Source: Isoalcanivorax pacificus W11-5 (GTDB taxonomy: Bacteria > Pseudomonadota > Gammaproteobacteria > Pseudomonadales > Alcanivoracaceae). Taken from it: a stretch of 64,000 bases of DNA. A model generated the notes under the pieces. It was not told the origin of the DNA, did not search any database, and saw only the letters and a program-made list of their open reading frames with translations. Location: positions 3,674,994-3,738,993 of the forward strand of contig NZ_CP004387.1 of NCBI RefSeq assembly GCF_000299335.2, in the 5' to 3' direction. The position numbers and the translations under genes were made by a program. Of this stretch, positions 5,267-63,992 are shown piece after piece; position 1 is the first letter of the stretch, and each line of letters begins with the position of its first letter.

Positions 5267-6670
5267 TCAACCGCACCAGCGTTGATTCGGGTATGGATGA
5301 ACGATCCGCACGGTGGGTATCCAGCGCTTGATATGCTTTGTCATGTTTACCCAACTTATCGGCCTTTTGTTTCCACGCCTTCGCAGCGCTTTGCACCAGT
5401 GCCGACAGATTTCCGTGCGGAAGGTTTGCAGCGATACACCGTTCCCCGGCACACCGTAGTAGTTGACCAGCCCTGTCAGGACTTTTCTCAACCAACGCCC
5501 CTGATCGTGTACATTAACCATCAGGTTCCGCCTTAGCCACTCTTTGATTCTCAGTAGTGTGGCCCGCTGACGTTTGGCAATAGTGTGCCGCCGGACTGTA
5601 AAGCAACCGTCCCGGCGTACGGCACAGATATGGGTAAAACCCAGGAAGTCGAATGTCTCCGGCTTGCCCTTCCCCTGTGCCTTACGATTTGCTTGCGCAA
5701 AGCGGCCAAACTCAATCAGCCGCGTCTTGTCCGGGTGCAATCTCAGTCCAAACTGTGTGAGTCGCCGCACCAGGGCGGTGTATAGGGCATGTCCGTCGCT
5801 TTGGTACTGGAACCCCAGCGCAAAGTCGTCGGCATAGCGGACAATATAGACCTCTCCCCGCGCATGCCGTTGCCGCCACTGGTGTACCCATAGATCGAGC
5901 ACATAGTGCAGGTAGATGTTCGCCAACAGCGGCGATATCACCGCACCTTGCGGGGTTCCAATCCGTGTGCCTGAGCGTTGCCCGTCTTCTTCAACACCCG
6001 CTCGCAGGGTTCTGACCAGGATATTCAGTACTCGTTTGTCGCTGACCCGGTGGCTGATGAATTGCATCAGCCATTCGTGGTCCAGCTCGTCAAAGAAGCC
6101 CTGTATGTCTGCATCCAGTACCCAGCTCACCTTCTTCTGCGTCAGTGTCATGTACAGAGCGTCCAGCGCTCTGTGCTGACTGCGACCGGGGCGGAACCCA
6201 TAGCTAAACCCCAGGAAGTCCTCCTCGAAGATCGTCTCCAGCACCCAGACCAGCGCCTGCTGGACTATCTTGTCTTCCAGTGCTGCGACGCCAATCGGCC
6301 GCTGTTGGCCGTTCGCTTTGGGTATCCAGATACGTTTCGAGGGCTGTGCCCGGTAGCGGCCCGTGTGCAGACGGCAGTGCAAGTCGTGAAGGCGACTTTC
6401 CAGGTCGACCCCGTAGCCTTCCCAACTCATGTCGTCCACGCCGGTGGCCGCTTTGCGGTTCAGCGCCAGGTAGGCATTCCTCAGCCGATCGACACTAACG
6501 TGGTGTAGCAGGTTGTTGAGTTGAAGACGTTCATCCCGTCTCGTTGCGGTACGTAGCCTGAGCAGACCCGATTCAGCCCGGTCCTCGCTCTGTGTCGAGG
6601 GCGCTGCGGGGTACTCAGTCTTCCTCTCTGCCAAAACCCTTCGCTCCACAGGCTCCGCCATCAAAGTCAT
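5267..6670 (-). CDS. ltrA: Group II intron reverse transcriptase/maturase
   Basis: A 467-residue intron-encoded protein. RT blocks are in order: RPIGVAALEDKIVQ, YGFRPGRSQHRALD, VLDADIQGFFDELDHEWL, TPQGAVISPLLANIYLHYVLD, and the catalytic YADD near 280. A maturase X domain follows (TFDFLGFTH, then WLRKVLTGLVNYYGVPGN). I see no HNH endonuclease domain after X, so it is of an endonuclease-less class. It would splice its own intron RNA and copy it into new DNA sites. It lies entirely inside the intron. Confidence 0.92.
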   Translation of the reverse strand: MTLMAEPVERRVLAERKTEYPAAPSTQSEDRAESGLLRLRTATRRDERLQLNNLLHHVSVDRLRNAYLALNRKAATGVDDMSWEGYGVDLESRLHDLHCRLHTGRYRAQPSKRIWIPKANGQQRPIGVAALEDKIVQQALVWVLETIFEEDFLGFSYGFRPGRSQHRALDALYMTLTQKKVSWVLDADIQGFFDELDHEWLMQFISHRVSDKRVLNILVRTLRAGVEEDGQRSGTRIGTPQGAVISPLLANIYLHYVLDLWVHQWRQRHARGEVYIVRYADDFALGFQYQSDGHALYTALVRRLTQFGLRLHPDKTRLIEFGRFAQANRKAQGKGKPETFDFLGFTHICAVRRDGCFTVRRHTIAKRQRATLLRIKEWLRRNLMVNVHDQGRWLRKVLTGLVNYYGVPGNGVSLQTFRTEICRHWCKALRRRGNKRPISWVNMTKHIKRWIPTVRIVHPYPNQRWCG

Positions 6671-7097
6671 TATCTCTCCAATGTTGTTCGCCTGCTTCCT
6701 CGCTACTATGGTTTTGTCCGACTCCCTGCGCCACCACCGACCTTATTTCTTCATTTCTTCGGTGTGACCAGCACGGAATGATGCTGGTGATGCACAGGGC
6801 CTCCCGGGTTCCGTTCGGTAAACATCAGTACATGCACCGGGTCTCTGACTCCGGGGAGCCTGCTTGGTCGCTCGCATAGCGCTTAAAGCAGTGTGGCCTT
6901 CCCTTTCAAGCAACAAGGTCGGCACTCCCAACGAGTGATTTCGGAGCTCAATACCGAGCCTGCACCTTCCCCTGTCAACGCTTAACCTCTGACCTTACGG
7001 GCAGCGGACCATGACTCGGGGCTTCAGCGAGGCGCTACCCTCCTACTGAATAGCGGACTTGCACCGCTTGATTTACCGCCAGCTTTGCCCGGCGCTC

Positions 7098-9378: not shown

Positions 9379-10098
9379 TCATAAATCTTTTCTCAACGTT
9401 TCCAGAGAAACAATTCTTGATTGTAGTATTTTTAGATCACTCAAAGGAAACTGAGCCAACTCAGCCTGAATGAAATCAACCAATCCAGGTATATCATCGT
9501 CGCTATTCACAAATATGTAGCGAATGTCCGTTGGCGAGATCTCTAGCTTATATTTTTCAACATCTTTATTTGCCCTATTTGCATCTTCATCATATGAATC
9601 ATCATATAGAATAGCCGAAATAACAGGAGGAACGTACCTCCATTCATTTTCAAGATAGAACTGCTTTTCTATAAACTCCCCAGACACCCTAACTCTTCCA
9701 TAAATAGGCTTTATTAAAGACAATAACTCATACGCTTTTTTATTTAGTTCTGATTTTTTATCTTCGTCTTCAAACTTTATAGCTACAAGATACTTCATTA
9801 TAGATTGGGCATGCCCGCCTTGGGGGCTGTAGATTACAGGATTCAATCCGTTTTTCATTCCCCAGCTCTTTGCCAACCCAATCCCATAGTTCCCATAAAA
9901 ATCTGTATGCTCGGAAATTCTTGCCAAAGGGATATCACAAAAACAACTCATGGGGAAGGATATATACTTGTGTTTAGAATGCCCAAGCCATTCCACATCT
10001 TCTAAGCAGAATCTTGGGAGAATTCCATTCTTTAGAATCATCTTCAGGACATCAAGTGACTTAGTAAAATGAAATAGATTATCTGATTTCGGTTTCAT
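9379..10098 (-). CDS. AbiGi-like abortive-infection family protein
   Basis: A 239-residue protein starting MKPKSDNLFHFTKSLDVLKMILKNG. The pattern LFHFT...L..IL.NG...R, then FPMSCFCDIPLARISEHTDFYGNYGIGL, matches my memory of the AbiGi family (putative abortive phage-resistance component) and related DUF2971-type proteins. The molecular activity of the family is not established as far as I know. The gene is AT-rich compared with the core genome and sits between REP-like units D and E. No partner gene overlaps it, so if it belongs to a two-part system the partner is missing. Confidence 0.6.
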   Translation of the reverse strand: MKPKSDNLFHFTKSLDVLKMILKNGILPRFCLEDVEWLGHSKHKYISFPMSCFCDIPLARISEHTDFYGNYGIGLAKSWGMKNGLNPVIYSPQGGHAQSIMKYLVAIKFEDEDKKSELNKKAYELLSLIKPIYGRVRVSGEFIEKQFYLENEWRYVPPVISAILYDDSYDEDANRANKDVEKYKLEISPTDIRYIFVNSDDDIPGLVDFIQAELAQFPLSDLKILQSRIVSLETLRKDL

Positions 10099-11405: not shown

Positions 11406-13265
11406 TTACTTAATCTCTTTCGGAGGGAAGAGTCCGAAACGGCCATGCTGGGGGTTCTTCGTGAAAACCGTCAGTGCGAGTTGACCTTCGAAGGATTCTG
11501 GTGGATGCTCATTTTCGACAATTATTACTTGGCTGTCGGAATGCTCTTCGATCAGATATTTATAGAATTTTTGTTTAAGATTTGTGCCTTGCAGGCTATC
11601 GCCTTCGCCCTCTGGTTTGTAATAGGCGAGCAATGGTGAATCAAGCACAACAAACCCTGGGTGAGGAAGCGATCGCTCTTTACAAAACTCGAGCAATCCC
11701 AAAGTAGCGGCAGCATGCGTTATCGCTCTGAGGCCCTTACCCCTGTTACCGCGAAGCTTACCGTTAATGACAAAGTCCATGGTTGCTTCATCAAAATGAA
11801 CACCACCTGTATCGGGAAAGTCCCAAGCCTCAAGTATCCGTTCTACCGTTTTAGAAAAATCGTGTAGAACTTGATGCGATAGTTTCGTAGAAATATTTTT
11901 ATCACCAGCTTCCACTCCCCCTGAATCCCCAAACAACTTTTCTCTTTGCGCTAGGAGCTTGTCCAATCTGGTAAATACCGTAATGTGCGAAACAACTTTG
12001 CTGCGCATATCAACAATATCGGAATAGCGGGACTGCATATCAGACAACTCCGGAGCAACAGCGCTTCTAATTTCACTGTCAACACCGTTAAATTTGTTTT
12101 CGACCCCAATCAGATCTTCGGATAGAAGTGCGTACTCTTCACGCAACGCAGTAACTGTAGAATCAAGATCACTTGCCAGTCTCTTAATCTTTTCCATCTC
12201 TGCTGCTGCCGCAATGACAATGGACTCAATATCGCCATCACATTCTTCGGTGCTATGTTGAGCTTCAGGCGAAGCGCCACAGAGCGGGCAAGGCGCTCGC
12301 TCATGGTGCACAAAAAGTGAGCCGGATTCTTCAATGGCCATCAATCGATGTAAATCGATTACATATTGAGATTTTAGCAGATCGAAGCGTTCCAACATAT
12401 CGGCTATGTCATCTATCCTGTCCTTGATTGCCTCGCGGCTTCTCACAATTTCCCGTCTTTGGACGGTCATCTCATTGAGCTGAGACTGAACCAATTGAAG
12501 CTGCTCTCTTCTGAATGAAATGGATTCATCAATTTTTTCGAGCTGTTCTTCCAACTCCTCACGCCCAAAACCGTGTTCGGTAATCTCGTCCTCTACATCA
12601 GCGATCCATTGCTCGATAAGTTCAGCTTTTGCTCTATCATTTGCATCAGATTGTTTGCGAGCATCTGCTGGCTCTATCGCGCTATCATCCGCACCAGTAA
12701 GCACAAGCTTCAAGGAGGATTTTTCAGCCGTTCTAGAAATATATTGACCAGTTAAGAACGGAGAATCCTGACGGATTATTTCCTGCTCATTAACAATGAT
12801 GAGTCGAGCGATATCGCGGAAACTTAGAGACCTGCAATCTCCATTCGCATTCTTTCGCACATATTTGCTTAGCAAATCTATAGCGCCAAGTAGCCAACCG
12901 GAAATATTATCCTCTCGGCCCGCTGCGTGTTTTACCTTGATCGTGCCGCTTTCCTTGACATCAGTCGCAGCCTTAATATTTCCTTCATATATTCGGTAGT
13001 TGCCACCATCTATACTGCGTTCAAATGTCCAGAGTCCTTTTTTCGAGGATTCAATAGCAATGCGGGCTTTGTCGTACCCGTCCAGCTCTGGAATTCCTCG
13101 CAGCTCCTTTCCTCCAAGGAGGAAGTCAATGGCCTCAACAAGGAAGGACTTTCCGGTATCGGATGCACCACATACAACACTTAAGCTTTCGTCAAAGTCA
13201 ATCAGAGCAGGAGGAACTCTAGCACCCAAAAAACTTATATTTCTTATTTGAATCATCTCACTCAT
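11406..13265 (-). CDS. ABC-3C system SMC/Rad50-like ATPase
   Basis: About 619 residues. Walker A CGASDTGKS lies near residues 32-40. A long coiled coil follows, with a zinc-hook-like CPLCGAS near 330 at its tip, a second coiled coil, and a C-terminal ATPase half with VVLDSPLLAYYKPEG and IIVENEHPP. This is the Rad50-like arrangement of ATPases in ABC-three-component conflict systems, where the ATPase senses nucleic acid and controls a partner effector. It is the last gene of a three-gene minus-strand operon whose members overlap or nearly touch. The start was set at ATG 13265; a GTG at 13280 is the alternative. Confidence 0.8.
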   Translation of the reverse strand: MSEMIQIRNISFLGARVPPALIDFDESLSVVCGASDTGKSFLVEAIDFLLGGKELRGIPELDGYDKARIAIESSKKGLWTFERSIDGGNYRIYEGNIKAATDVKESGTIKVKHAAGREDNISGWLLGAIDLLSKYVRKNANGDCRSLSFRDIARLIIVNEQEIIRQDSPFLTGQYISRTAEKSSLKLVLTGADDSAIEPADARKQSDANDRAKAELIEQWIADVEDEITEHGFGREELEEQLEKIDESISFRREQLQLVQSQLNEMTVQRREIVRSREAIKDRIDDIADMLERFDLLKSQYVIDLHRLMAIEESGSLFVHHERAPCPLCGASPEAQHSTEECDGDIESIVIAAAAEMEKIKRLASDLDSTVTALREEYALLSEDLIGVENKFNGVDSEIRSAVAPELSDMQSRYSDIVDMRSKVVSHITVFTRLDKLLAQREKLFGDSGGVEAGDKNISTKLSHQVLHDFSKTVERILEAWDFPDTGGVHFDEATMDFVINGKLRGNRGKGLRAITHAAATLGLLEFCKERSLPHPGFVVLDSPLLAYYKPEGEGDSLQGTNLKQKFYKYLIEEHSDSQVIIVENEHPPESFEGQLALTVFTKNPQHGRFGLFPPKEIK

Positions 13266-13269
13266 CTTG

Positions 13270-13764
13270 TTAACCGCCACCTAATCCTTGCAATGAATGA
13301 AACTGGGTAGTCCATTTATCAAAGAAGCTACTGATTAAACTATGAAGCTCTTTGGTATCCATATTCCCGAAAGTCTCGCCAACCCAATTTGCCCTAACTA
13401 TCAATGAGCGCATATACGGGGTAGCCATTAAGTCGACGAATGGCTTGGCATAATCAGTTGCTTGATAAAAAATCCCTTCTTCGCCGGCTATTCGGGTAAC
13501 AAGCCCGCGGCTCATCATCAATGAAATTCCCGACTCAATAATTTTACGCCTAACCAGAAGTTCACCCTCTCTCATAGGAAGAGGTGGATGAAGACTTTTC
13601 GGTCCATTAACATCACCTGAATGAACTACCAGATAGTCAAAATCCACAAGACGCTGCAAATCCAAAGCAGCAGGGAAATTGGCAGCAAGGATAACTAGTG
13701 AGCGAACACCGGTCTCAAGAGTGCTGTTAAATACAGTGACATTTTTTTGGCGCTCTTCACTCAT
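13270..13764 (-). CDS. ABC-3C system middle component
   Basis: About 164 residues with a winged-helix look: VFNSTLETGVRSLVILAANFPAALDLQRLVDFDYLVVHSGD, then MREGELLVRRKIIESGISLMMSRGLVTRI and FYQATDYAKPFVDLM. This is the pattern of middle-component proteins of ABC-3C systems, thought to bridge ATPase and effector. It overlaps the effector gene by eight bases, and the ATPase start lies inside or just after its end, indicating coupled translation. A GGAG eight bases before ATG 13764 supports that start over the GTG at 13773. Confidence 0.75.
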   Translation of the reverse strand: MSEERQKNVTVFNSTLETGVRSLVILAANFPAALDLQRLVDFDYLVVHSGDVNGPKSLHPPLPMREGELLVRRKIIESGISLMMSRGLVTRIAGEEGIFYQATDYAKPFVDLMATPYMRSLIVRANWVGETFGNMDTKELHSLISSFFDKWTTQFHSLQGLGGG

Positions 13765-14857
13765 CTTGCTCACTCCAGTTCAACCGACGATCATTCACAA
13801 GTTGGTGACACATCCCTTGTTTGTCCCGTACGCGGGTGACACTAGTGAGCGGGCTTGCATCAACTGCAACATTGGCTGCTTGGTTCATTGTTGCATTCAA
13901 ACGATCCATGCCACACGTATGCTGAGACTCACACACTTCCACCACCCCATCATAAATATCATCTTGAAGAGCTTCGAAGACACCTGAAGGAACTGTATCC
14001 CGAGAAAAATTTCGCAAGGACTCCGCATGGTAAAAGCGCTCGCGCTGTCTACGAAAGTTATTCCGTATGCTATCATCCTTTATTAGTAGGGAAAGATCGG
14101 GCGGTTGCTGGTCATCACCAATGAACTGTGCATATACGCTCAGCAGCTGTCTTACGTATCGATGATCCATAGATACAGTATCTTCTGGCGGTATTACAGG
14201 TTCGGGACGTGGGCCAAGACCGCCACCAAACCTTACGGCATGAAAAGGTGTGGTCGCATGTTGTTCAATCATTCGAACATGTGACACGGAATCGAATATC
14301 GTATAATCAAAGCTCTCAAAATGGGCAAGGAGATCGCCCTCAAGCTTTATCTTGGCTGTAGATGTAATGCCATCTTCACAATATTTCTCCCAGTTATCTT
14401 TTAGTTCTTCTTTTAATTTTTGAGCGTTGGCGAGTAGTTTACCTAGTTTTGTTCCGATCTGCTTCGGAGCAACAAAGTAGTATTTTCGCGGAGGCGTGTA
14501 TTCACCGCGTTTCGTAAAGTAAATAATTTTACCTAACTCGACCCAGACACTGGAAGGCGTTAGGGGCTTATCATAAAACTTACACTGGTAGTTGTCCCAA
14601 CCATCACTGAACTGGTTAGAAGCGATAAAACCTACGACATCTAATCCTTTGTCACCTGATCCGGCAAAGCGTTTGACGCAATAATAGGAACTTCTAAGAG
14701 ATGAAGCCCATTCCTCGGCAAACTCCTCCCATTCGTCCGCGCTAAATAGTTGCACGCGCTGCGTTTTCGGGATAGGAATCCCAGAACCTATATGCTCTGA
14801 GCTATACAATCCTTTTTGAGGATTGGGTAGAATCTCTTTGAAATCATCTTCGTTCAT
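13757..14857 (-). CDS. ABC-3C effector with PD-(D/E)XK nuclease-like domain
   Basis: A 366-residue protein. Residues about 40-130 resemble Mrr-type restriction nucleases: WEEFAEEW (Glu near 46), GSGDKGLDVVGF (Asp73) and NYQCKFY (Gln91-x-Lys93), the D...QxK catalytic pattern. The C-terminal half (SMDHRYVRQLLSVYAQFIGD onward) is the conserved ABC-3C C-terminal region that docks to the other components. It heads the operon effector-middle component-ATPase. By analogy it would cut DNA when the ATPase senses invasion; the target is unknown. Confidence 0.75.
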   Translation of the reverse strand: MNEDDFKEILPNPQKGLYSSEHIGSGIPIPKTQRVQLFSADEWEEFAEEWASSLRSSYYCVKRFAGSGDKGLDVVGFIASNQFSDGWDNYQCKFYDKPLTPSSVWVELGKIIYFTKRGEYTPPRKYYFVAPKQIGTKLGKLLANAQKLKEELKDNWEKYCEDGITSTAKIKLEGDLLAHFESFDYTIFDSVSHVRMIEQHATTPFHAVRFGGGLGPRPEPVIPPEDTVSMDHRYVRQLLSVYAQFIGDDQQPPDLSLLIKDDSIRNNFRRQRERFYHAESLRNFSRDTVPSGVFEALQDDIYDGVVEVCESQHTCGMDRLNATMNQAANVAVDASPLTSVTRVRDKQGMCHQLVNDRRLNWSEQDE

Positions 14858-58544: not shown

Positions 58545-58899
58545 GGGGCCGACAAGGTTTCGACGTTGGTTTTGAATCCTGTGGTGCATGTCGAGAAGGT
58601 TACGGTTCTCGTAAATCCATCGTGACAACTAAGTAATCGCAAACGACGATTCTTACGCACTGGCAGCCTAATACCCTGCCTACGGTCAAGCGACCCAGCC
58701 TGTGGGGAAGCGCGACCGGCTAAGCTACACAGGCTCGCATTGAGGCTCGTCCCGGGCTGATTTGCTAAATCCTTAGGGAATCGGCGCTGACATCCTGCCC
58801 TTCGGGCCGTAAGCGCTTAAATCAATAGAACGGGCTAAACATGTAGATCTGCAGGTGGATTGCTGACGGACGCGGGTTCGATTCCCGCCGGCTCCACCA
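58545..58899 (+). ncRNA. ssrA: Transfer-messenger RNA (tmRNA)
   Basis: 355 bases. Acceptor arms GGGGCCG and CGGCTCC with encoded CCA, and T arm GCGGGTTCGATTCCCGC. The tag frame starts at GCA after AAGTAATC and reads ANDDSYALAA followed by TAA, giving the full tag AANDDSYALAA with the expected ALAA end. It acts with SmpB in ribosome rescue. Its 3' end is the integration site for the following islets. Confidence 0.98.
58876..58899 (+). repeat. Attachment site att1 (3' end of ssrA)
   Basis: The last 24 bases of ssrA (GTTCGATTCCCGCCGGCTCC plus ACCA) recur at 62295-62318 (20/24 identical) and, less completely, at 63606-63629. This is the expected footprint of tyrosine-integrase insertion into tmRNA genes. 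Confidence 0.75.
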
Positions 58900-59092: not shown

Positions 59093-59121
59093 TTGACTCA
59101 CAGTCAATGATCACATATCTT
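59093..59121 (+). promoter_or_regulatory. Promoter with overlapping operator of the retron-like operon
   Basis: TTGACT (59093-59098), 17 bases, TATCTT (59116-59121): near-consensus spacing and elements. The -35 is also the left half of the palindrome TTGACT-CAC-AGTCAA (59093-59107), a plausible binding site for the XRE protein of the same operon. A GAACC/GGTTC hairpin and a boxA-like TGCTCTTTAA (59151-59160) follow. Confidence 0.6.
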
Positions 59122-59127
59122 AGCGGC

Positions 59128-59405
59128 CATGGACGAACCAACGGTTCGTTTGCTCTTTAAAAATTTCCTCCAGGAATCGTACTAGCTAGTAGATGGCTTG
59201 CGGCTTTACCGCTGCTGGCCGGCTGTCGGGGCAACCCAGGCAGTCTGAATCCCCCCACATGTCCTCGACGCGGATCGCCCGGGACACATGCGGCAGGGGG
59301 AACAACGCTCGAAGCATGGTGGCTTGCGTTGTCTACATCGCTCCTTTCGGCTGGTGCGTGGAAGCGGCAGGCACAATCCGTGCTGAAAGTGACCCTATGG
59401 AGGTT
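59128..59405 (+). ncRNA. Candidate msr-msd-like structured RNA
   Basis: About 280 bases without a gene between the promoter and the 79-aa gene, full of hairpins. They are GCGG-CTTTA-CCGC (about 59199-59211), CTGCTGG/CCAGGCAG (about 59212-59243), a long imperfect stem with CCCCCCACATGTCC against GGACACATGCGGCAGGGGG (about 59251-59300), and AACGC..AGC/GCT.GCGTT (about 59303-59330). Short hairpins followed by a long stem are what retron msr-msd RNAs show. I could not define a1/a2 ends or the branching G, so this is a candidate only. Confidence 0.4.
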
Positions 59406-59409
59406 TGAG

Positions 59410-59649
59410 ATGAACACTGAAGAAATTTCAGGACTCATCGATCTGCTTCGGCAGATCAAAGAGCAAGGCGGTGTAGACGACAGTTTGGCTAAAGAAATTG
59501 GGTTGGCGATCGAAGCGCTTGAACGTGAGAGCGAATGCAAGATGCCACTTGAGAACATATGTCTCGTACTGGGACTTATCTCGAAGGTGGTTGCTGTTCT
59601 GCCCGAAGTTCAAAAAGCTTTTGAAGTATTAACCAAGTTTCTTGAATGA
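59410..59649 (+). CDS. 79-residue protein of the retron-like operon
   Basis: Starts MNTEEISGLIDLLRQIKEQGGVDDSLAKEIGLAIEAL and ends with an amphipathic to hydrophobic helix, ENICLVLGLISKVVAVLPEVQKAFEVLTKFLE. An excellent SD (GGAGG, six bases before ATG). It lies between the candidate ncRNA and the XRE gene and is on the same transcript. It could be a small effector or accessory protein; I know no homologue. Confidence 0.6.
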   Translation: MNTEEISGLIDLLRQIKEQGGVDDSLAKEIGLAIEALERESECKMPLENICLVLGLISKVVAVLPEVQKAFEVLTKFLE

Positions 59650-59716
59650 CCAGCAGCGCTAGCGCTGGCATATAGTACACGGGCAAACAGCAAGCCACCT
59701 ATTTTTATGGATCACT

Positions 59717-60013
59717 ATGAATTTCGGCACGGCAATAAAAACCTGTAGAGAAGCTAAAGGTCTATCAAGGGCCAAGCTAGCAGAGGATTGTCTTCTCTCC
59801 CCTTCCTACATCACGCTACTCGAACAGAATAAAAGAGACCCCAATCTCTCCGTAGTCAATAAAATTTCTAAAGCCCTTGACATCCCTCCGTCAATTTTAA
59901 TTTTCTTAGCTACAGACAAAGAAAATTTCGAGTCATTTGATAAAGAGTTGGCAGAAAAACTTTCCCTGATAACATTGAAGCTAATTCAAAATGCAGCGGA
60001 TAAATCCTCCTAG
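59717..60013 (+). CDS. XRE/Cro-C1-type regulator
   Basis: A 98-residue protein with a classic helix-turn-helix at residues about 5-55: FGTAIKTCREAKGLSRAKLAEDCLLSPSYITLLEQNKRDPNLSVVNKISKALDIPPSILIFLA. A short acidic helical tail follows. It overlaps the RT gene by 23 bases. HTH proteins accompany one class of retrons (type VI in the published scheme, from memory). It may repress the operon at the palindrome overlapping its promoter. Confidence 0.85.
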   Translation: MNFGTAIKTCREAKGLSRAKLAEDCLLSPSYITLLEQNKRDPNLSVVNKISKALDIPPSILIFLATDKENFESFDKELAEKLSLITLKLIQNAADKSS

Positions 60014-60474
60014 ATATTTCCATAAACCCATAGTTACCCTAGACGGATTAGCGAAGCGCCTAGGCGTCAGTGAAGAGGAGCTTAATCACCTCATCGATAA
60101 CGTTGAGAAATATATTTATCCCAACACCCCAGAGAAAAAGGCGTCGGGCGGATTTCGCCAAACCTACCGAATCGGCAATAGGCTCAGGAAGCTGCAGGAC
60201 AAAATAAAATTCCGCCTCTTCAGATATGTCGAATGGCCCTTCTATCTTCATGGGGCTATCAGAGATGAAAAAGCAGCTAGAGATCACATTACAGATGCAA
60301 AGGCTCATTCCCACGGCGCTCACACTATCAACCTTGATGTATCAAGATTTTTCCCCTCTATATCTTCCGAGCAAGTCTACCTAATGTGGCTAAGTGGATT
60401 TGTAACCATCCCCTAAAATCGGTGCATGCGTAATTAGAGTTCTCCGGCCTACAATGACGCTAACGGAGAACGAC

Positions 60475-60741
60475 ATGAAGAAATCACGGTACAGCGAGTC
60501 ACAGATCGTCAAGATCCTGAAGGAGGTCGAGGGCGGTCGTCTGGTCAAGGAAGTCTGTCGGGAGTACGGCATCTCTGATGCGACCTACTACAACTGGAAA
60601 GCTAAATACGGCGGCATGGAGGCTTCTGACGTGAAGCGCCTCAAGGAGCTTGAAGAGGAAAACCGCCGGCTAAAGCAGATGTACGCTGAACTGAGCCTGG
60701 ACCACAAACTGCTGAAGGATGTGATCGAAAAAAAGCTGTAA
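60475..60741 (+). CDS. IS3-family OrfA
   Basis: An 88-residue protein: MKKSRYSESQIVKILKEVEGGRLVKEVCREYGISDATYYNWKAKYGGM (helix-turn-helix that binds the IS ends) and a leucine-zipper-like coil (LKELEEENRRLKQMYAELSLDHKLLKDVIEKKL). AAAAAAAG at 60728-60735, just before the stop, is the likely -1 frameshift site to make the OrfAB transposase. ATG 60475 is preferred over 60454. Confidence 0.93.
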   Translation: MKKSRYSESQIVKILKEVEGGRLVKEVCREYGISDATYYNWKAKYGGMEASDVKRLKELEEENRRLKQMYAELSLDHKLLKDVIEKKL

Positions 60742-60764
60742 AGCCAGCCGTTCGGCGAGAACTG

Positions 60765-61586
60765 GTGGATTACCTCAAGCATGCTCACGGCGTCAGCATC
60801 CGTAGAGCCTGTCGAATCGCTGGCATCAGTGACTCTGTGTACCGGTATCGGCCGGATACTTCCCGGGATGAACCAGTGATTGCCGCGCTTCAGATCGCGG
60901 CTGAACGCTATCCCGCCTACGGCTTCAGCAAACTGTTCAAGGTGCTTCGACGCTGGGGTCATGGATGGAATCACAAGCGGGTACACCGGTTGTACTGTGC
61001 CCTGAACTTGAGCAAGCGGCGACGGGGCAAGAAGCGGCTTCCGACGAGACGTCCTGAGCCATTGGCGGTTCCCGCCACTGCCAACCACTGCTGGTCCATG
61101 GACTTCATGAGCGACAGCCTGTTCTGTGGCCGGCGGTTCCGGACATTCAATGTGGTCGATGATTTTAACCGGGAGGTGCTGGCCATCGAGATCGACCTGA
61201 ATTTACCGGCCCCAAGGATTATCCGGGTGCTGGAACGTATCATCGCCTGGCGAGGCTACCCGGCCAGGTTGCGAATGGATAACGGCCCGGAGTTCATCTC
61301 CATGGCCCTGGCAGACTGGGCCGAACAGCACGGTATCTCGCTGGAGTTTATCAAGCCGGGTAAGCCGACTCAGAACTCCTACGTGGAACGCTTCAATCGG
61401 ACTTACCGGGACGAGATCCTCAATATGTATGTCTTCCGGAATCTCACTGAGGTCCGGCAACTGACCGAATCGTGGATGGCCGAATACAACGACGAGCGTC
61501 CCCACGATTCATTGCAAGACCTCACACCATGGGAATACTTGGCGAAACACCAACAGACGGAAAACTCTAACCAACGGTGCAACTAA
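60765..61586 (+). CDS. IS3-family OrfB (DDE transposase)
   Basis: 273 residues from the ATG shown; probably expressed as a frameshift fusion from OrfA. It has an HTH_21-like start (LKHAHGVSIRRACRIAGISDSVYRYRP) and an rve integrase core with catalytic Asp in WSMDFMSD, Asp in RLRMDNGPEFIS and Glu in NSYVERFNRTYRDEIL. It appears intact, so the IS may be active. Confidence 0.95.
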   Translation: MDYLKHAHGVSIRRACRIAGISDSVYRYRPDTSRDEPVIAALQIAAERYPAYGFSKLFKVLRRWGHGWNHKRVHRLYCALNLSKRRRGKKRLPTRRPEPLAVPATANHCWSMDFMSDSLFCGRRFRTFNVVDDFNREVLAIEIDLNLPAPRIIRVLERIIAWRGYPARLRMDNGPEFISMALADWAEQHGISLEFIKPGKPTQNSYVERFNRTYRDEILNMYVFRNLTEVRQLTESWMAEYNDERPHDSLQDLTPWEYLAKHQQTENSNQRCN

Positions 61587-62168
61587 AACAGGGATGTTTA
61601 CAGATTTAATTTTTCTCCTGAGGTTGCAAAAGCACTAATGAAGCTGACCACTAGAGAATACTGGCTCTACGAAGGCGCCCCAACAAGCCCACTTATAGCC
61701 AACATGATTTTTGGACAACATGAAGCCGATCTCGTCGAAGAGTACATTCGACAGGAAATCACGTACACACGATTCGTAGACGATATAACAATATCGAGCC
61801 CGAGAAAAATGGAAGATCAGAAACTGGGATCAATAATTCGACAAATCTATGGAATGCTTCTTAACAAAGGTCTTCAGCCAAATAGAAAGAAGCAAAAAGT
61901 TTACATAGGTGCTGGAAGAGGGAACGTCCACGCCATTATCACTCGGCGAGGACGAGTACATTACGAAAAGAGTCGGCGAAAACAAATCAAGCTGGAGGCT
62001 TACAATCTACTCAAGAGCGCCGAGGAGACTGGCCGTGATACTGACGAATATAGGTCGCGTTATAATAGCATCTTAGGCAAGCTATCCATGATGAGGCGGC
62101 TTCATCCGCAAGAAGCCCAGAGAGAGATTGATAAGCTAATTGAAATGGCTCCTTTAAAAGGGGCTTAG

Positions 62169-62294: not shown

Positions 62295-62318
62295 ATTCAA
62301 TTCCCGCCGGGCCCACCA
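62295..62318 (+). repeat. Attachment-site copy att2
   Basis: Matches the 3' end of ssrA at 20 of 24 positions, including TTCCCGCCGG and CCACCA. It marks the junction between the retron-like islet and the next one. Confidence 0.7.
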
Positions 62319-62876: not shown

Positions 62877-63323
62877 CTATTTGATTCTGGTTTTAAAATA
62901 AGTCTTAAGATCAGCCTGTGGAATTGTACCCGCGACTTCTTCGTAATCCTGCCACGGCGCCTCTTCGTGCGTCATATTCCTAAGTTTCCATGCAGAAAAC
63001 TGCCCGAAAACCTCATAGACCTCATTTAAAAATTCAAGCTGCTCGTCAGTAAAACTCTCTTCAGGAGAAAAATCCTCAGGAGCAGGTATGGCGCTTTTGC
63101 CATGTTGCTTGTAATCATGGTAAACACTAGGCACAACCGGCCCATGAGCCCAAGCTTCAATATTCTGAGAAAACAACGGCTTATCGAAAATGGCGAGGTG
63201 GAAACCTTGAGCGTAATACAGGAGCTTTTGTAGCTTTAAATTGGATATGCCCGTCTCCGCATCTTCACGGTCATCCCGGACCAAAAAATACTTAGCCACA
63301 TCAACCGCTGAAATATTAGACAT
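62877..63323 (-). CDS. Panacea-domain (SocA/DUF4065) antitoxin
   Basis: A 148-residue protein starting MSNISAVDVAKYFLVRDDREDAETGISNLKLQKLLYYAQGFHLAIFDKPLF, then AWAHGPVVPSVYHDYKQHGKSAIPAP, the DUF4065/Panacea signature; the Trp-His-Gly-Pro-Val-Val segment is diagnostic. Panacea antitoxins pair with many unrelated toxins. ATG 63323 follows GCAGGAGG at ideal spacing; an ATG five codons upstream is rejected. Confidence 0.88.
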   Translation of the reverse strand: MSNISAVDVAKYFLVRDDREDAETGISNLKLQKLLYYAQGFHLAIFDKPLFSQNIEAWAHGPVVPSVYHDYKQHGKSAIPAPEDFSPEESFTDEQLEFLNEVYEVFGQFSAWKLRNMTHEEAPWQDYEEVAGTIPQADLKTYFKTRIK

Positions 63324-63605
63324 GGTTGCCTCCTGCAATCACGACTTGAGGTTCTGCCATTTATAGTTATCACCTCGCTCTGGCTCTCCAATGCTATCAC
63401 CTGAACGGACGCCAGCCCTAGCAGGCCGCAATACTGACCAAAGGAGCAGCAAAAATCAACCTCAGCAGCCTTGTGACAATCCCAAAAGGTGATGATTGCC
63501 AATGTTAAGCGCGAAACCGGTTTCAACAAGTGGTACAAAAATTGCTATGCTACTATCCCTGCCTAATCGACAAGCCCTTTAAAATCAACACACTAAAGGC
63601 TACGA
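63324..63605. other. Promoter region of the TA pair and gene-free DNA
   Basis: No protein-like frame. It must carry the minus-strand promoter of the Panacea operon; I could not pin down the elements. Confidence 0.4.
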
Positions 63606-63629
63606 TGATGCCTCCCGCCGGTTCCACCA
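63606..63629 (+). repeat. Attachment-site copy att3, diverged
   Basis: Identical to the ssrA 3' end at 16 of the last 17 positions (TCCCGCCGGtTCCACCA) but different before. It probably closes the second islet carrying the Panacea pair. Confidence 0.6.
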
Positions 63630-63701: not shown

Positions 63702-63992
63702 ATGAACAGGGATCACATCCTTGCATTACTCAGCCAGAACAAGCCCGCCCTGGAGGCACGCTTTGGTGTGACGCGGCTGGCCTTGTTTGGCTCGTCGGCC
63801 CGCGGCACTGCATCACCCGACAGTGACATCGACATCCTGGTTGCCTTTGATGGGCCGGCCACATCAAAGCGCTATTTCGGCGTGCAATTCTATCTGGAAG
63901 ATCTGCTACAGCAGCCCGTGGATCTCGTTACCGAGAAAGCATTGCGTCCAGAACTGCGTCCCTTCGTTGAACGGGATCGCGTCAATGTCTGA
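63702..63992 (+). CDS. mntA: MNT-type nucleotidyltransferase (MntA-like antitoxin)
   Basis: A 96-residue minimal nucleotidyltransferase: RLALFGSSARGTASPDSDIDILVAFDG (GSxxRG...DxD catalytic motif, both Asp present), then FYLEDLLQQPVDLVTEKAL. Such proteins pair with HEPN RNases and silence them by adding AMP. SD GGAGG is seven bases before the ATG. The next gene starts inside its last codons. Confidence 0.9.
   Translation: MNRDHILALLSQNKPALEARFGVTRLALFGSSARGTASPDSDIDILVAFDGPATSKRYFGVQFYLEDLLQQPVDLVTEKALRPELRPFVERDRVNV

Follow-up and report, generated by a model that had tools for sequence, protein, structure and literature searches.

A probable type VI retron behind ssrA in Isoalcanivorax pacificus W11-5, its reverse transcriptase gene split by an IS3-family element

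Background

The closest described systems to the locus treated here are the type VI retrons of PADLOC, in which genes for a small protein (SP), an HTH protein and a reverse transcriptase (RT) follow one another in that order. A literature search that covered few subscription papers found no experimental work on type VI retrons, and retron types in this article follow the PADLOC model names. Interruption of a retron is already known: in Retron-Bth1 the RT gene carries a group II intron, which is presumed to be removed by splicing, and the retron still yields RT-DNA (PMC12548924). The locus described below resembles that case in carrying a mobile element within a retron RT gene, but differs in that the element is an insertion sequence (IS) with no known exit from the mRNA. 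Our literature search found no paper on retrons broken by an IS.

Two other described systems bear on parts of the locus. The first is regulation by boxA, described for suhB and for a gene that encodes a ParE-like toxin (PMC5725501); a boxA-type element before a toxin-type gene is common to that case and to this one, whereas the accessible text of that paper mentions no retron, and here a hairpin and boxA open a long structured leader. The second is the pair IS911 and IS629 of the IS3 family, which have the orfA/orfB transposase and short ends seen here.

The window, by which we mean the whole analysed stretch of 64,000 nucleotides from I. pacificus W11-5 (contig NZ_CP004387.1, positions 3,674,994 to 3,738,993), contains an operon that shares gene content and order with the PADLOC type VI retrons. 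It departs from them in three ways: its RT gene is interrupted by an IS, its SP is too divergent for the SP_VI model, and its RT lies near the boundary between RT_V and RT_VI. Our reading, to which we assign a probability of roughly 0.85, is that this is a type VI retron carried behind ssrA, that its RT gene was split once by an IS3-family element, and that the loss was neutral or mildly favoured. The features on which the argument draws are collected in Table 1.

Table 1. Features of the retron segment and its borders, numbered by position in the window
Feature	Position	Strand	Remarks
ssrA (tmRNA)	58545-58899	+	likely site of island integration; final 18 bases recur downstream
Promoter-like site TTGACT-17-TATCTT	59093-59121	+	consensus scan
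Palindrome TTGACTCACAGTCAA	59093-59107	+	likely HTH operator, predicted
Hairpin, then boxA-like TGCTCTTTAAAA	59131-59162 (boxA-like 59151-59162)	+	leader scan, fold
Helix H1, 5' strand CCTCCA	59167-59172	+	tentative; in unconstrained minimum-energy fold
Helix H2, 5' arm GGTGGCTTGC	59318-59327	+	covariation, fold
SP gene	59410-59649	+	79 aa; linked to type VI retron small proteins by position and family alignment
Helix H2, 3' arm GCAAGCCACC	59690-59699	+	between SP stop and HTH start
HTH gene	59717-60013	+	98 aa, Xre-type; PADLOC HTH_VI 3.3e-26, 90/92 positions
RT gene, 5' part	59991-60400	+	136 codons and 2 bases; retron RT N-terminal half, motif LDVSRFF
Target duplication GATT	60397-60400 and 61603-61606	+	perfect 4-bp copies flanking the IS
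IS3-family insertion sequence	60401-61602	+	1,202 bp; two transposase frames, matching ends
orfA	60454-60741	+	95 aa, HTH_Tnp_1 1.6e-26
orfB	60765-61586	+	273 aa, rve_3 8.8e-29, rve 1.7e-21
RT gene, 3' part	61607-62168	+	FVDD catalytic motif
att-like copy of ssrA 3' end	62301-62318	+	2/18 mismatches; right border of retron segment
Further copy of ssrA 3' end	63612-63629		2 mismatches of 18

Results and discussion

Genomic setting

The retron segment starts just 3' of ssrA and is flanked by repeats of the ssrA end. In the closest congeneric genome (G035), 399 bases ending with ssrA are kept at 97.7% identity, and similarity ceases at the last base of ssrA (12 kb compared); a second congeneric genome (G032) shows an exact second ssrA-end repeat about 1 kb further on. 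Read from these sequence relations, the region would be a stack of cargo integrated at ssrA. Among or beside further ssrA-end repeats lie genes for a Panacea-type antitoxin-like protein (62877-63338, minus strand, 6.1e-25) and for a nucleotidyltransferase (63702-63992, plus strand, PADLOC PDC-S09, 2.2e-28), and these possibly form a stack of small cargo modules. Elsewhere in the window the minus strand encodes a Lamassu-like pair (11406-14857; LmuB 2.1e-180, LmuA 1.1e-118), an AbiGi-like protein (9379-10098, 4.9e-53) and a protein with NERD and UvrD helicase domains (1109-2959, PADLOC C3a187, 1e-168). A group II intron with its own RT (5267-7061, minus strand, with an Rfam D1-D4-6 match at 6839-7061) sits amid these defence genes and is a second mobile insertion in the window.

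Gene content and retron type

The model HTH_VI matches all 29 of the HTH family members scanned, with the best E-value of the models. For the SP family, PADLOC SP_VI matches 34 of the 42 aligned members; the window's own SP gives no match to that model at E 0.1, and is tied to the family by position, length and family alignment. No convincing name for the family came from Pfam, NCBIfam or PHROGs, and comparison of the SP by sequence with solved structures gave nothing convincing either (the best was JetA, E 0.001). Its predicted model, of moderate confidence, consists of three helices (mean pLDDT 80, pTM 0.44). In the best 80 of 439 RT relatives, an HTH gene lies upstream of the RT at 58 loci, and every one of those 58 has an open frame of SP length ahead of the HTH gene.

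The RT halves match retron RT models with best E-values of 1.3e-25 (left) and 1.7e-31 (right), and the border position of the protein is visible in its scores. RT_VI is best for the C-terminal half (107.6 bits vs 83.9 for RT_IV), RT_V is best for the N-terminal half (88.4 bits, slightly above the 84.6 of RT_VI), and the RTs of intact relatives divide likewise, with RT_VI best in 5/8 and RT_V in 3/8. A profile of the RT family finds the RT of retron Ec86 (PDB 7v9x) as its nearest solved structure, at 1.1e-40; the partner genes of Ec86 differ from the SP and HTH seen here. In the alignments, VHA stands where the VTG motif is expected, and DAKAH takes the place of NAxxH. Given the HTH_VI match, the RT_VI matches and an SP family that itself matches SP_VI, a type VI retron is, to judge by sequence comparison, the most likely identity of this SP-HTH-RT operon. 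The initial annotation of this DNA had rightly recognized a retron-type RT, but had neither noted the gene for SP nor assigned the operon to type VI.

An RT gene split at a single codon

The RT frame starts at 59991, enters the IS, resumes beyond it and ends with a stop at 62168. That a retron-like RT is cleanly interrupted here by an IS3 element had been proposed before, and is borne out by the ends of the element, by the GATT pair and by the two halves falling on one codon. The rejoining arithmetic proposed with it is also right: 410 bases (59991-60400) plus 562 (61607-62168) make 972, or 324 codons including the stop. The halves were searched separately against homologues with the insert left in place. 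In five of the closest intact homologues (L028, L029, L030, L031 and L034), the left half ends, with its residue 137, on the very codon at which the right half starts with residue 1; in L033 the left-half end and the right-half start are not quite on one codon. In the genome_contigs set (the best 80 of 439 relatives), both halves could be aligned at 64 of the 80 loci. Both half-ends lie exactly on one codon in 30 of these 64, and 52 of the 64 are collinear to the codon once short alignment ends are extrapolated; the half-ends are off by one or two codons in 11, and L102 is the single non-collinear locus. At the junction the residue is Phe without exception (two alignments, 9 sequences each), and the meeting of the halves at this one codon of uninterrupted homologues marks the insertion as a clean, in-frame one. 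At the protein level the two halves thus align as parts of one RT, so that the refuting condition named in the initial annotation does not apply, and catalytic motifs are kept in both halves (LDVSRFF; FVDD).

The insertion point lies between the motif A and motif B blocks of the RT, so that the N-terminal fragment is no longer than 141 residues and the C-terminal one lacks the motif A aspartate. No further stop codon occurs in either half, and the SP and HTH frames are intact, so that the RT alone is broken, and by a single insertion, as had been suggested. A retron is expected to have an intact RT gene, and this locus, split by the IS, does not; it is therefore a retron remnant and not a working retron. 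One might suppose instead that the RT works as two separately made fragments, both being open with catalytic residues kept, and the right part offering an ATG at 61638. That ATG, however, sits 11 codons inside the right half, a consensus scan shows no promoter-like site near 61600, and in the 64 relatives that align to both halves (from the best 80 of 439) no RT divided at the same point was noticed, bar the unexplained L102; a split but working RT strikes us as far-fetched. Equally hard to credit is an assembly artefact, given a single-contig genome that is 100% complete, the flanking duplication, and a distinct copy of the element, 87% identical, elsewhere in the same genome.

The inserted element and its age

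The element has the marks of the IS3 family: orfA and orfB frames with a slippery run, a DDE-type transposase, short inverted ends (TGTAACCATCCC and TGTAAACATCCC, matching at 11 of 12 positions) and a 4-bp duplication. Elements of the IS911/IS629 type in this family make target duplications of 3-4 bp. The slippery run, A7G, lies where orfA ends; orfA and orfB are in different frames, and frameshifting at the run is putative. Besides the insert, the genome holds one further full copy and one 178-base remnant (96% identical), and since the full copy is only 87% identical, the insert is not a fresh duplicate of it. A copy carrying a deletion, 92-93% identical, occurs in a congeneric genome, and full copies are found on plasmids of Marinobacter (88%) and Halomonas (85%). 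Contigs of the genome G029 carry lone 95-base left and right IS ends (95% and 88%) at several places, which are possibly miniature derivatives, or contig breaks. An Rfam match to isrN, an Hfq-binding sRNA (75 bits, 60740-60882, minus strand), falls inside the transposase gene of the IS, and the isrN family may have been derived from an IS element.

The insertion had been described as recent. Its perfect duplication, the intact transposase frames and the absence of any other stop in the RT halves make recency plausible from the sequence.

Uninterrupted relatives and the meaning of the loss

Loci anchored on the SP (E 1e-5) occur in 8 of 381 order genomes and in 5 of 369 class genomes, both counts including the locus in the window. 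The RT is broken in one of 11 such loci, that of the window, and uninterrupted in 10/10 of the others, so that breaks are not simply common. The genomes sampled were one per species, and among them no empty or population allele without the IS was found. Searches for a close uninterrupted relative reached the following levels. The closest RT homologues in sampled genomes have 39% identity over the whole right half, and the highest identity is 43%, in one partial segment of L096 (genome_contigs, best 80 of 439). Viral contigs yielded relatives at 34% over the right half and shorter segments at up to 45% (best 80 of 104), an initial viral contig scan having given 6 pattern matches and no relative, and a 24-base left-flank pattern 0 matches. 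RT records number 59 in plasmids and 8 in phages, all below 60% identity. No near-identical uninterrupted RT is present in the 390 order genomes, the best 80 genome_contigs loci or the viral contigs searched. The search of related genomes recommended by the initial annotation thus found intact homologues, all at 43% identity or below, which is too distant to demonstrate an empty site, a cost in fitness or reversible switching. Two earlier suggestions, that the cell had switched off a costly defence and that the IS acts as a reversible switch, are unsupported, no empty or population allele having been found.

Each suggestion nevertheless deserves a weight. A switch would require that precise excision restore the RT in part of the population, and could draw on the perfect 4-bp duplication, the intact transposase frames and the helper-driven precise excision described for IS629, an IS3-family element (PMC9330008). 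The same source describes copy-out paste-in transposition for IS911, also of the IS3 family, and this would be expected to keep the donor copy in place; together with the missing near-identical uninterrupted RT in the collections just listed, it makes a switch very improbable. That the insertion was selected, the retron being costly through autoimmunity or a new phage balance, we consider unlikely but worth keeping in mind. Only the RT was struck, with SP and HTH still open, in a family whose other ten SP-anchored loci keep the RT uninterrupted. The case is a single genome, however, in which a neutral island insertion is indistinguishable from a selected one, and the genome has few copies of the IS (one full and one partial besides the insert).

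The leader and its long-range helices

Tests on RNA used 56 loci and the window, leaving out L048 (an unrelated frame) and L053 (no suitable start). The promoter itself is weak evidence, since two promoter-like sites were found vs 3.9 expected in shuffles. The palindrome TT[GC]ACTnnnAGT[GC]AA, allowing at most 2 mismatches, is present in 50 of 55 leaders vs 3.9% of shuffles, a distribution that fits autorepression by the HTH protein. A hairpin with a boxA-like TGCTCTTTA behind it (up to 2 mismatches in 9) occurs in 28 of 57 leaders and is missing, by this rule, from the other 29; 13 of the 28 are exact matches. The same rule matches 38 of 684 background stretches taken from the same loci, a background that includes the leaders. 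The leader in our window folds with a z of -2.04 (6/200 shuffles fold equally well) and has no match to Rfam at E 1. Long retron leaders occur in L057 and L077, that of L057 with many tandem 16-base units (GTCAG..AGACAGTTC) between conserved ends.

Helix H2 pairs the leader with the gap between SP and HTH, and so brackets the SP gene. Taking the best helix at each locus in 54 distinct sequences (window included), a locus's own pairs score on average 25.7 vs 19.1 (sd 4.2) for swapped pairs and 17.2 (sd 2.9) for shuffles; 50/54 pass a filter on position and score, with 30 distinct helices and double changes in all ten innermost columns. Choosing the best helix at each locus introduces a bias, and the two regions were therefore aligned separately, without pairing information, in 51 sequences. 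The best diagonal of this pairing-blind alignment is H2, with 7 scored columns paired at 84-98% (an eighth is too gapped for scoring). None of 100 row permutations exceeds 0.96, against 1.82 for the helix; with 22 representatives the helix scores 2.53 vs 1.11. Five loci outside the 51-sequence set have H2 at the same place, matched by 0, 0, 0, 6 and 6 of 500 shuffles, although they are not fully independent, two having been fetched earlier (one of them read by eye) and two repeating known helices. Locus by locus, H2 reaches 0.05 or below in 35/52 and does not in 17/52; that of the window is matched by 38/1000 shuffles.

Helix H1 is tentative, the support from the family being mixed. Its 5' strand adjoins the boxA and its partner strand, TGGAGG at 59398-59403, overlaps the SP Shine-Dalgarno. 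Own pairing exceeds swapped pairing (16.7 vs 13.5, sd 2.9) over the 50 of 57 sequences in which the boxA anchor has no more than 4 mismatches in 12. In the window alone it is no better than chance (199/1000 shuffles reach it), and its fixed-column covariation in 44 sequences lies above the permuted mean and never above the permuted maximum at three lengths. H1 had been considered as a candidate for the a1/a2 repeats. What the locus presents in the way of an msr-msd with a1/a2 repeats is thus a structured leader with a strongly covarying H2, a mixed H1 and no Rfam match. In L005 and L006, from another type VI branch, the ribosome site before the small frame lies by eye in a local hairpin, and masking of this site may recur across type VI branches.

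Constraint on the small protein gene and its flanks

Fourteen disjoint pairs of close relatives were compared. Synonymous difference is 0.186 in SP, 0.290 in HTH and 0.367 in RT, the SP value being below that of HTH in 11/14 pairs and below that of RT in 12/14; amino-acid-changing difference is higher in SP (0.067) than in HTH (0.024). Of the non-coding stretches, the 100 bases just ahead of SP differ by 0.056 and the SP-HTH gap by 0.068, with the leader from -200 to -100 more variable at 0.169. Leader, SP synonymous sites and SP-HTH gap are thus less variable than the synonymous sites of HTH and RT, and part of this low variation could come from recombination or from an expression gradient. 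By quarters, SP synonymous difference runs 0.125, 0.182, 0.178 and 0.259, and the higher last value speaks against a strict template role for the end of SP. A speculative reading, which we hold to be doubtful, is that the functional type VI retron RNA of this clade encloses the SP gene, the whole stretch being constrained as RNA, with H2 pairing leader sequence some 65-105 nt ahead of SP with the SP-HTH gap.

Conclusions

It would appear that the operon consists of operator and promoter, boxA-type leader RNA, SP, HTH and RT, carried behind ssrA. In intact relatives the RT and the HTH protein may bind the leader RNA and gate SP upon phage infection, with SP the probable effector and the RT with its leader RNA the probable sensor. 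In I. pacificus W11-5 the IS removes the RT and, we infer, the defence with it: no active RT would be made, no RT-DNA would be produced, and the system would be off. The HTH protein, acting at its palindromic operator, would still repress the operon, and the ribosome site of SP may be covered by the folded leader RNA; the cell could in this way tolerate an intact SP that has lost its RT, and SP would be silent here. That the cell lives with an intact SP suggests that SP is not lethal by default. The insertion itself is an ordinary kind of damage, and most likely represents a loss, neutral or mildly favoured, within an island in decay.

The locus amounts to a natural RT-null type VI retron that has kept SP and HTH, and as such it bears on whether SP is toxic without RT. 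If the retron RNA does enclose the SP gene, then the action of RT on that RNA, or its unfolding upon infection, would directly set SP translation; a retron that reverse-transcribes or masks the message of its own effector would represent a new kind of retron control, for which the IS-broken locus would serve as a natural RT-null test. The operator, the boxA, the covarying helix around SP and the low synonymous change in SP offer concrete, testable predictions for the family.
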